Assembly (NCBI RefSeq): GCF_008271695.1
Contig: NZ_VKKY01000002.1
Span: 1,116,001-1,180,000, forward strand
Length of the DNA: 64,000 bases
Origin: Rufibacter hautae
Lineage (GTDB): Bacteria; Bacteroidota; Bacteroidia; Cytophagales; Hymenobacteraceae
Reading direction: 5' to 3'
The translations under genes were made by a program, and so were the position numbers. This document shows, in pieces, positions 16,762 through 19,535 of this stretch. Position 1 is the first letter of the stretch; every line of letters begins with the position of its first letter. Below the pieces are notes generated by a model. That model made no database searches. It was not told the origin of the DNA and saw only the letters and a program-made list of their open reading frames with translations.

Positions 16762-17523
16762 TTATTTTGAATTAAGCGCCGGCGCAACATAATTCCCCAA
16801 CACACTCTCATACTCATCAATCGCCATGACCCGCATTTTGTGTGAGTCATAGGGCTGCAGCACGTTATACCATTGGCGTTCCTGCAGGCGGTTGTCCATC
16901 CAAATGTTCTCGCTTTGGGGCGAGAGAATGACGGGCATGCGGTCATGGTAGGGCATGACGGCGCTGTTGGCTTGGGTAGTGATGATACTGAAGCAGGAAA
17001 CCAACTCTCCGGTGTCGGGAAGAAGGCTTTCGCGCCAGAGACCAGCTAATCCGAAGGGCTCTTCGTTTTTGAGGGTGAACCGATACTTCTGCTTCTGAGG
17101 CTTGGCTTTTTTTGAGCGGCTTTTCTCCTCCTTGCTCCGGATGGGGTTGCCAAAAAGGTCCAGCCCCAAATCAGGTTGCGGAGCAGGCGCGGGTTCTTCT
17201 AGGTCTTCCTCCAGTTCTTTCCACTCAAAGAATCCGTCAATGGGGATGATGCAACGGTGATGGGGCAACAAGGCCCGAAAACGAGGAATGCGCAGCAGGT
17301 TTTCCTGGCGCACGTTGAAGGGAAACGTGGGTTTTCCATCGGGTTCCTTCTCCGGAGAAGCCCAGGTAGCCATGATCGCTTTCTCGGCATCGGGAATGAT
17401 GACGGGCAGTTTTTGCGAGGGCCGCGCATCAAAATTAGGCTCAAACACCAAGCCTTCCAGCTTGGAGGAAAACCGGTGCTCCTGGGGTACTTTTTTCTTG
17501 CTCACCGAGTAACGGCCACACAT
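16762..17523 (-). CDS. HMCES/YedK-type abasic-site-protecting protein (SRAP)
   Basis: SOS-response-associated peptidase (SRAP) family. It forms a covalent DNA-protein crosslink to abasic sites in single-stranded DNA through Cys2, exposed after Met removal. Key residues are visible: Cys2 in MCGRYSV, Asn70 in FNVRQE, Glu100 in GFFEWK and His193 in YHDRMPVIL. The start is fixed by Cys2, so the in-frame ATG six bases upstream is rejected. Unusual is a ~45-residue Pro/Glu- then Lys/Ser-rich insertion (about 104-147) between the FEWK motif and the next strand, which contains a short LGLDLFGNP. No LexA-like operator was recognised. Confidence 0.92.
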   Translation of the reverse strand: MCGRYSVSKKKVPQEHRFSSKLEGLVFEPNFDARPSQKLPVIIPDAEKAIMATWASPEKEPDGKPTFPFNVRQENLLRIPRFRALLPHHRCIIPIDGFFEWKELEEDLEEPAPAPQPDLGLDLFGNPIRSKEEKSRSKKAKPQKQKYRFTLKNEEPFGLAGLWRESLLPDTGELVSCFSIITTQANSAVMPYHDRMPVILSPQSENIWMDNRLQERQWYNVLQPYDSHKMRVMAIDEYESVLGNYVAPALNSK

Positions 17524-17651
17524 AAGCATTGGGTTTAAGGCTCAACAGATAAGGAAATATACGCTTTTGCCACAGCATAGGCAAGGATGCCCCTAAGCGC
17601 GAAACTCTTCAGACCAATAAATCAAGGGGAATGCTTTGACGTCTTTTGGTT

Positions 17652-17682: not shown

Positions 17683-17778
17683 TGGAGTAAAGTAGGAAAC
17701 TAAATACAATAATTTTCACGCAGGCCTTCCCCAAAGATTGTGCATCTTCGTGGTTCAGGAATTCCGTTTAACGTGTCT

Positions 17779-18543
17779 ATGAACAGATTTGTCTCCCGAG
17801 AAGCCGCTGCCAAGGTACTGCAGAAAATACAGGAGTTGGCCTTGCCCGCCACGTATGACTATGAGAAGCACCGAGTGATTCTTTTGGATGCGCAGGGAAA
17901 CGAACAGGTACTATTCAGGTTGCCCATTACAGTGCCGCCCTTGAAGGAGGACCTCAAGCCTAAGCTTGACAAACCGGCACAGTACGTGATACTGCTCATC
18001 CAAGCGGGAAATTGCGCGATGGGTTACTTCAGAGATGGCGTGAACCTCAATCACAAGGTTTTCCGGTCCTATATGGTCCGCAAGAAGCAGGGCAAAAGCC
18101 AGATTAAATACCTGAAAACGAAGGGCAAATCAAGGGCGGGCTCTAGGGTGCGGCTAGGCGAAACGGCGGAGTTCTTTGAGAACATTAACGGGCGCCTGCA
18201 GGACTACTTTGAGCACCATGAGATCCACCGCATCGCGCTGAGCTGTTCCAAAACGCTCCTCCCCTTCCTCTACGACGCCAAAGTGCCTACTCCTTTCAAT
18301 AAACGAGATGAGCGCATCTTCAAAATCCCGAAGCACATTCATACGCCTATTTACGAGGTGATGATGAATGCAAACCTTTTCCTGCTGAAAGGCGAACTGA
18401 TCTATGAACCCATTCATGAAGATCTAATCAACCAACTTCTCCCAGAGGGCTATGGCGAGGGAGATGCAGAAGAAGACTTACCAGAGGAGGAGTATGGTGA
18501 TGATGAGTTTGGAATAGATACTGATTTTGAGAACTACGAATAG
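17779..18543 (+). CDS. VLRF1-domain protein, Vms1/ANKZF1-like peptidyl-tRNA hydrolase candidate
   Basis: 254-residue protein whose core (about residues 55-190) resembles the eRF1-like VLRF1 domain of eukaryotic Vms1/ANKZF1, which cleaves peptidyl-tRNA on stalled 60S ribosomes. The segment FRSYMVRKKQGKSQ aligns with the Vms1/ANKZF1 loop of pattern RxKxGxxQ, placing Gln108 at the catalytic Gln; RAGSRVRLGE follows as in ANKZF1 (SAG-x-x-RR). A Ser-Cys segment (IALSCSKTLLPFL) and a strongly acidic C-terminal tail (about 222-254) follow. ATG 17779 is preferred to the upstream GTG 17740. Cytoplasmic ribosome rescue is inferred from fold similarity; the family in Bacteroidetes has, to my knowledge, little experimental work. 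Confidence 0.7.
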   Translation: MNRFVSREAAAKVLQKIQELALPATYDYEKHRVILLDAQGNEQVLFRLPITVPPLKEDLKPKLDKPAQYVILLIQAGNCAMGYFRDGVNLNHKVFRSYMVRKKQGKSQIKYLKTKGKSRAGSRVRLGETAEFFENINGRLQDYFEHHEIHRIALSCSKTLLPFLYDAKVPTPFNKRDERIFKIPKHIHTPIYEVMMNANLFLLKGELIYEPIHEDLINQLLPEGYGEGDAEEDLPEEEYGDDEFGIDTDFENYE

Positions 18544-18584: not shown

Positions 18585-19535
18585 TTATAGCCACTTCTTG
18601 CGCTTGAAGTACCACAGGAACGCCAGTGAGGAAATCACCATCATAGTAAGGGCAAACGGGTACCCTCCTACCCAGTTCAGCTCCGGCATCACCTTGAAGT
18701 TCATGCCGTAAATGCTGGCAATTAAGGTAGGTGGCATGAACACCACCGTCATTACGGTGAAGATCTTAATGACCTGGTTTTGCTCAATGTTCACCAAACC
18801 CAGAAAAGTGTTCTGCAGATATTCAAGACGCTCAAAGCTGAATTGGGTGTGTTGCAAGAGGGAGTTAATGTCTTTGATGATGGTGCGCAGCCGCTCTTTC
18901 TCCGGCTCTTCCACGGCGTAGCTGCGCAACAGCGAAGAAACCAGCCGCTGCTTATCCACGATGCTCTCCCTGATGAGGATGGTGTTCTCCTGGAGTTCGG
19001 TAATCCTGATCAGGATCTCTTCTTCAATGGACTGCTCTTTCACCAGGCGCTTACTTACCACGTTGGTAGTGCGGGTCAGCAACTCAATAAAGTCGGCGTC
19101 ATAGTCAATCTGGGTTTCCAGGAGCAAGAGCCAGATCTGGAAGGCTTTGGTGGTGGTGCTCCGGAAGGTTTTCATCTTGCGCACGGTCTCCCCGAAGGAT
19201 TTCATTTCGGTGCGGCGCAGGGTGAACAGTATCTCGTTCTTGAGGATAAAGGAAACCTGGCGGGTGATGTAGGAACCCTCCTGGTGCATGACAAAGGCAC
19301 TGTTCGCCTCAAAGATGTTATCATCCTCAAAGTAACGGGAAGAACTCTCAATCTCGGCGGCCTCCTGCTGGGTGAAGAACTCTATCCCGAACTCCTCCTC
19401 CACCAGGCGCTGCTCATGGTCGGTGGGCGACTGCAGGTCTACCCAGATTATGCGTCCTTTCTCCGGGTCATGGAAGCTCTCCGGGTTTTTCTCCCAGTGG
19501 ATCTCCCCTCCTCTTATATAGAAGCCTCTAATCAT
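18585..19535 (-). CDS. corA: CorA-family Mg2+/Co2+ transporter
   Basis: 316-residue inner-membrane divalent-cation channel. The first ~250 residues form the cytoplasmic alpha/beta funnel and long helix; two transmembrane helices occupy about 255-275 and 290-310. The ion-selectivity motif Gly-Met-Asn is present in SIYGMNFKV between the helices, and the protein ends in a basic cluster (KRKKWL), as CorA proteins do. It forms a pentamer in characterised members. A possible -7 box TAAGTTTG (complement of 19596-19603) lies about 60 bp upstream of the ATG. It is convergent with the VLRF1 gene, with only 41 bp between them and no obvious hairpin. Confidence 0.93.
   Translation of the reverse strand: MIRGFYIRGGEIHWEKNPESFHDPEKGRIIWVDLQSPTDHEQRLVEEEFGIEFFTQQEAAEIESSSRYFEDDNIFEANSAFVMHQEGSYITRQVSFILKNEILFTLRRTEMKSFGETVRKMKTFRSTTTKAFQIWLLLLETQIDYDADFIELLTRTTNVVSKRLVKEQSIEEEILIRITELQENTILIRESIVDKQRLVSSLLRSYAVEEPEKERLRTIIKDINSLLQHTQFSFERLEYLQNTFLGLVNIEQNQVIKIFTVMTVVFMPPTLIASIYGMNFKVMPELNWVGGYPFALTMMVISSLAFLWYFKRKKWL

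Follow-up and report, generated by a model that had tools for sequence, protein, structure and literature searches.

A standalone bVLRF1 (PF18826) gene in Rufibacter hautae encodes a bacterial relative of the Vms1/ANKZF1 release factors

INTRODUCTION

The closest described systems are the eukaryotic ribosome quality-control (RQC) release factors Vms1 and ANKZF1 (eVLRF-1), in which a zinc finger, ankyrin repeats and a VIM are arranged around the core, according to the section of PMC6514570 cited here. According to the cited portion of PMC5989216, yeast Vms1 acts as a tRNA hydrolase, and the reaction of Vms1/ANKZF1 has been described, in the passages cited from PMC11317155 and PMC12868832, as cleavage of the 3' CCA end of the tRNA and not as ester hydrolysis. 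A bacterial group, bVLRF-1, was described in Bacteroidetes and linked to Vms1 by Burroughs and Aravind in 2019 (PMC6514570, in the parts cited), who proposed it as the source of Vms1. The same parts of that paper state that the N-terminal extension is conserved in sequence between bVLRF-1 and eukaryotic VLRF-1 and that the bacterial VLRF-1 members are independent of RQC components. As far as the cited passage of PMC11317155 goes, no dedicated RQC termination factor has been identified in bacteria, and release in Bacillus subtilis is carried out by Pth. In the table cited from a genome survey (PMC11633108), rqcH is present in 404 of 1956 FCB-group genomes, so that RQC is patchy in this group by the method of that survey. 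Searches of openly licensed papers in PubMed Central gave no experimental study of any bVLRF1.

The family, its host phylum and its predicted role were published in 2019, and the family assignment that we report is already known and not new. At the level of sequence the finding is thus an ordinary one. The gene represents the eukaryotic RQC release factor in a clean, conserved bacterial form. It bears on two questions, namely whether a release factor devoted to 50S-bound chains exists in some bacteria in addition to Pth, and whether the Vms1 chemistry is ancestral.

RESULTS

A PF18826 gene in the window

The window, which is the whole analyzed stretch of 64,000 nucleotides (64 kb), carries the gene and its parts as follows.

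17779..18543, + strand: standalone bVLRF1 gene with ATG start (254-aa ORF; PF18826, E 8.9e-29)
17779..17970, + strand: N-terminal alpha/beta extension, residues 1-64 (pLDDT of at least 90 in ten-residue blocks; VIA-align)
17983..18384, + strand: VLRF1 catalytic domain, residues 69-202, with the RNase-H-like fold of eRF1 domain 2 (PF18826 match, model and structure matches)
18052..18156, + strand: residues 92-126, comprising the predicted catalytic loop and the first part of the basic helix (seven invariant residues; pLDDT about 55 at 101-120)
18100..18102, + strand: CAG codon of Gln108, the counterpart of Vms1 Gln295 (single-sequence and profile alignments)
18442..18540, + strand: acidic, low-confidence C-terminal tail, residues 222-254 (sequence and model)

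The ORF runs from the ATG at 17779 to the stop codon at 18541-18543. A longer in-frame alternative would start with GTG at 17740, and the ATG was preferred because many close relatives start with a similar MNxF at that position. An earlier note on this DNA had described a loop of the form RxKxGxxQ with Gln108, a following R-A-G-S-R-V-R segment and an acidic tail, and all of these are present in the gene: the loop reads RKKQGKSQ (residues 101 to 108, with Q108 as the glutamine), and RAGSRVR occupies residues 119 to 125. By itself the short R.K.G..Q motif is weak evidence that chance could give: a six-frame translation of the window contains it 3 times, and of 20000 shuffled versions of the protein 48 contain it as well. 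The full-domain match to PF18826 ("Bacteroidetes VLRF1 release factor") is far beyond chance, with 100.8 bits against a cutoff of 27 in Pfam over residues 69 to 202, and all 27 aligned sequences (the query and 26 relatives) matched the same family.

Relatives were collected from 141 loci besides the window's own and gave 116 distinct sequences, 55 from a pattern scan of contigs (drawn from the best 80 of 274 confirmed relatives) and 61 by profile; the set is weighted to Rufibacter and Pontibacter. The GxuQ feature of the family appears as G105-K-S-Q108, with the glycine and the glutamine in all 116 distinct relatives; in 114 of them residue 107 is S or A. The domain assignment to Vms1/ANKZF1 made in the earlier note was borne out by the PF18826 match, by the profile match to Vms1 and by the AlphaFold model (see below), and the gene is supported as a clear bVLRF1 member and a bacterial relative of Vms1/ANKZF1.

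bVLRF1 was the only family above a Pfam cutoff in the 254 residues, weak matches such as NAF being disregarded, and the Pfam search matched neither the zinc finger and ankyrin repeats of Vms1 nor the flanking eRF1 domains or a stop-codon-reading domain. The score for baeRF family 10 (PF18854), a family that keeps the glutamine according to the cited part of PMC6514570, was below threshold at 16.5 bits against a cutoff of 27.1. This family was weakly matched by 5 of the 27 aligned members (best E 0.00067), and acVLRF1 was weakly matched by 1 of 27.

Structural comparison with Vms1 and eRF1

The AlphaFold model had a mean pLDDT of 86.8 and a pTM of 0.81, with residues 241 to 253 below 50, and it displayed the feature of the VLRF-1 clade, an RNase-H-like fold with a loop between strand 3 and the helix. 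The loop (blocks 101-120, about 55) sits after the strand formed by residues 88 to 96 and is the sole low-confidence part within the domain, as expected for a mobile catalytic loop. When a profile of the 27 sequences was compared with the PDB, three Vms1 sequences were found (best E 1.2e-10), together with one other, insignificant match up to an E of 1, and the single-sequence search reached Vms1 at an E of 0.0012. PDB entry 4ghb, with an E of 0.022 in the single-sequence search, did not reappear when the profile was searched to an E of 1 and was dropped as a chance match.

In Foldseek, four Vms1 entries came out on top (E 6.3e-06 to 1.6e-05), followed by eRF1 and aRF1, and 17 matches had an E of 0.001 or less, Balon among them; the TM-scores to Vms1 were modest, only 0.41 to 0.48 by query length. 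The best VIA-align match was ribosome-bound Vms1 (6r84; Z 13.0, 4.2 A, 173 residues, range 1-210), and the four Vms1 entries had Z values of 13.0, 12.8, 11.7 and 11.1 over 159 to 173 residues. The named eRF1/aRF1 entries gave Z values of 8.3 to 11.5 over 116 to 130 residues (range about 64-204), the Balon entries 9.4 to 10.1 over 114 to 128 residues, and unrelated RNase-H-like folds such as IscB and PPX/GppA stayed at or below 8.5. Region 64-204 of the model matched the middle domains of Vms1, eRF1/aRF1, Pelota/Dom34 and Balon, mostly above the unrelated RNase-H-like folds. The fold match was not exclusive: the lower two Vms1 entries, at Z 11.7 and 11.1, are hardly separated from eRF1 with its maximum of 11.5. 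This, the modest TM-scores and the Z of 8.5 attained by unrelated folds were counted against the reading that we propose below. Since 173 residues were aligned over the range 1-210, at least 27 of them fall within residues 1 to 64, a part that the sequence-profile alignment to Vms1 leaves uncovered. The structural comparison thus makes the superfamily clear, with the additional aligned residues in this N-terminal part favoring Vms1. Structure prediction against Vms1 and eRF1 domain 2, one of the checks named in the earlier note, came out in favor of its proposal, with a related fold and Vms1 as the best PDB match.

Invariant loop residues and the C-terminal tail

Seventeen columns were invariant in the 27-sequence alignment, including H92, Y98, R101, G105, Q108, R123 and R125, and the same seven residues were invariant in all 116 distinct relatives. 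Because the scan patterns contain YMVR, KGKS and GSR.RL, selection by the search accounts in part for the constancy of Y98, R101, R123 and R125 in the 55 scan-found relatives; G105 and Q108 were part of no scan pattern, and the 61 distinct relatives that only the profile found all keep R101 and Q108. R101, G105 and Q108 align with R288, G292 and Q295 of Vms1 (counted back from GGSQ, in the numbering of PMC5989216). In the cited portion of PMC5989216, yeast Vms1 R288A and G292A/G293A had no release or hydrolysis activity, Q295L and G292A were strongly impaired in release, and in a growth test H279A behaved like the wild type and Y285A was partly impaired. The counterparts of H279 and Y285 are H92 and Y98, both of which are invariant in bVLRF1. 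Where the yeast GGSQ has its second glycine, the window protein has K106, a difference that was counted against the release-factor reading. The gene is under purifying selection: in comparisons with seven relatives of at most 83% identity to the window protein, dN/dS was 0.08 to 0.17 in four, with dS saturated in the remaining three, and for residues 91 to 127 pN was 0.00 to 0.06 with pS of 0.46 to 0.90 in all seven.

A tail was scored as acidic when the last 20 residues were net acidic by at least 4. By this measure 82 of the 116 distinct relatives have an acidic tail. The controls were 657 distinct mechanical ORFs from the same loci, each 150 aa or longer, and 40 of them scored as acidic. 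Tryptophan was found among the last three residues in 64/116 relatives, with EDDW-like ends in, for example, L002, L040, L058 and L064, and the combination of acidic tail and tryptophan occurred in 53/116 relatives versus 2/657 controls. The window protein has the acidic tail, ends in NYE and is without tryptophan. The word "acidic" is absent from the main text of PMC6514570. The tail may be a docking motif and, more speculatively, might dock a partner for extraction or degradation of the chain, replacing the Cdc48-binding motif of Vms1.

Occurrence and genomic context

The family has a narrow distribution. Of 296 genomes sampled from the phylum, 5 carry PF18826; the genome of the window is one of them, and all five belong to the window's order. 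The earlier note had set such a protein in a phylum where rescue is poorly mapped; with this distribution, the gene tells little about rescue in Bacteroidetes as a whole. PF18826 was present in 75/291 genomes and 33/115 genera of the order, and in 74/150 genomes and four of six genera of the window's taxonomic family. Within the family, presence sorts cleanly by genus: g2 and g144 are without bVLRF1, and the other four (g1, g141, g142 and g143) have it, except for two incomplete genomes (G332, 78%; G425, 87%). This patchiness within its own family means that the function is dispensable, which was counted against the release-factor reading. The named relatives, which are the best 80 of 274 confirmed, came from Rufibacter, Pontibacter, Adhaeribacter, Roseivirga, Echinicola and similar genera, the best being a Rufibacter with 83% identity; as all of these 80 are close, the scan is silent on other phyla and on Heimdallarchaeota. 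Among viral contigs, 221 pattern matches included no confirmed bVLRF1 relative, and plasmids gave no bVLRF1 match.

Two genes flank bVLRF1 in the window.

16762..17529, - strand: SRAP (SOS response associated peptidase) gene, a neighbor outside any conserved unit (Pfam; neighborhood comparison)
18585..19535, - strand: CorA magnesium/cobalt transporter gene (family near bVLRF1 in 8/81 loci)

Gene order was compared in 81 loci, namely the 80 named loci (the best 80 of 274 relatives) and the window; in 5 of the 81 the core gene was unmarked by the motif filter, and the gene order of those five is absent from the comparison. No conserved operon was seen among these loci beyond local synteny between related species, and the most widespread neighbor family was present in 22/81. 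The lack of a conserved partner gene pointing to the ribosome in the 81 loci was counted against the release-factor reading. A small HEAT-repeat protein (L130, 946-1482) is encoded near bVLRF1 in 7/81 loci in part of the order, and look-alikes recognized by eye lie beside bVLRF1 in L002 (2095-2694) and L003 (725-1279). In L137, from a record titled as a Flavobacteriaceae MAG, the gene order round bVLRF1 equals that of the Roseivirga loci, and the title is probably wrong.

This genome encodes an NFACT/RqcH-like protein with NFACT_N and NFACT-R matches. It is divergent: its best stretch covers only the second half of NFACT_N, and it scored 63.8 against a cutoff of 400 for NCBIfam RqcH_arch. The NFACT_N profile had two match places in this genome, one of which was examined, and a protein query had one. 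NFACT_N matches were present in 150/150 sampled genomes of the family, and in the order NFACT was found in at least 232/291 genomes (3 of the 232 below the family cutoff), a lower bound as at most five candidates were scored per genome. When the two order listings were compared by eye, NFACT was present in 68/75 genomes with bVLRF1 versus at least 164/216 without it (Fisher p 0.007, a value that ignores relatedness and is not to be leaned on). The seven genomes with bVLRF1 and without NFACT included four 99%-complete genomes of one genus; all seven were again negative with a protein query from that genus and all candidates scored, a search that divergent copies could escape. Conversely, NFACT is present and bVLRF1 absent in two genera of the window's family. 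Co-occurrence is thus not obligate, and, as bVLRF1 occurs with and without detectable NFACT, it is not strictly tied to RqcH-type alanine-tailing RQC. In this genome bVLRF1 and the NFACT gene share a contig and are widely separated on it. As a separate observation, the NFACT/RqcH-like gene is immediately preceded, on its upstream side, by a gene of the metallo-beta-lactamase fold in two genera of the order (L149, 1132-3458, - strand; L151, 1000-3326, - strand), with the Pfam test of that fold confined to L149; the N-terminal part of NFACT is divergent.

Four RF-1-domain proteins are encoded in this genome, PrfH and ArfB being two of them. In L154 (34-1800, + strand; contig C1 near 587857) an RtcB-like RNA ligase gene is directly followed by prfH, the former being below the NCBIfam cutoffs and the latter above its cutoff. 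The same genome has an ArfB-type rescue hydrolase (L155, 1456-2010, - strand), tmRNA and Pth (L156, L163), and several rescue routes therefore coexist with bVLRF1.

DISCUSSION

We consider it likely that bVLRF1 is a standalone bacterial release factor of the Vms1 type, with codon-independent release of nascent chains from peptidyl-tRNA as its predicted activity. This reading builds on family membership, fold, invariance of the key residues, purifying selection and the lack of a match to a stop-codon-reading domain; ribosome binding, catalysis and substrate are inferred. The protein would enter the A-site side of a large subunit, or of a stalled ribosome, that carries peptidyl-tRNA, and would insert the basic loop, which bears R101, G105 and Q108, into the peptidyl transferase center, and the nascent chain would then be freed from the P-site tRNA without reading of a codon. 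The putative substrate is 50S-peptidyl-tRNA that remains once a ribosome has been split, whether or not RqcH-like tailing takes place, and bVLRF1 is probably one of several overlapping rescue routes.

By analogy, the chemistry is expected to be the same as that of Vms1/ANKZF1, and we regard cleavage of the CCA end by bVLRF1 as having about an even chance. Hydrolysis of the peptidyl-tRNA ester, as by RF1/eRF1, is a tentative possibility: a GxxQ with an invariant glutamine is the chemistry common to eRF1-type factors in the cited section of PMC6514570, and the hydrolase report for yeast Vms1 agrees with it, whereas Vms1/ANKZF1 are described as CCA endonucleases in the passages cited in the introduction and the bacterial loop has the same R, G and Q. 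A lack of any catalysis by bVLRF1 seems quite unlikely, and a role as a noncatalytic A-site plug or hibernation factor like Balon very unlikely. Balon does share the fold family, at the Z values given above, but conservation of the bVLRF1 loop residues is complete, in contrast to the loops of families presumed inactive, for which the cited parts of PMC6514570 report poor conservation.

That bVLRF1 would be the dedicated termination factor of the RqcH-type alanine-tailing pathway, and so the true bacterial counterpart of Vms1 in RQC, is rather doubtful. The RqcH-like NFACT of this genome, the NFACT_N matches in every sampled genome of the family and the higher NFACT frequency in genomes with bVLRF1 (relatedness being ignored) are in its favor. 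This RqcH-dependent reading is weakened by co-occurrence that is incomplete in both directions, with seven bVLRF1 genomes lacking detectable NFACT and NFACT occurring without bVLRF1 in at least 164 order genomes and in two genera of the family, and by the distance between the genes, the divergence of the NFACT protein and the description of bacterial members as RQC independent in the cited part of PMC6514570. The proposal of a dedicated release factor for a bacterial RQC route acting on 50S-peptidyl-tRNA appears unlikely, and CCA cutting as in Vms1 and docking of a partner by the tail would be speculative extras that this estimate leaves aside. The reading of bVLRF1 as a standalone Vms1-type release factor is compared below with the known systems.

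Compared with the PF18826 family, the protein is alike in domain match, Bacteroidota host, GxuQ motif, N-terminal extension and standalone gene, and no difference from the family was found; this orthologue is without the C-terminal tryptophan of 64/116 distinct relatives. Balon and the baeRF-type factors represent the same superfamily fold in bacteria, with bVLRF1 below the cutoff of baeRF family 10. The RNase-H-like fold with a glutamine loop is common to the middle domain of eRF1/aRF1, whereas the bVLRF1 loop is GKSQ and not GGQ and the flanking eRF1 domains are unmatched in Pfam. Relative to eukaryotic Vms1/ANKZF1, bVLRF1 is a protein of 254 aa without matched zinc finger or ankyrin repeats, would act on a bacterial ribosome and has no obligatory RqcH-like partner, whereas the core fold, the R, G and Q of the loop and the downstream AGS-R segment are alike in both, and the structural alignment also covers part of the N-terminal region of bVLRF1.
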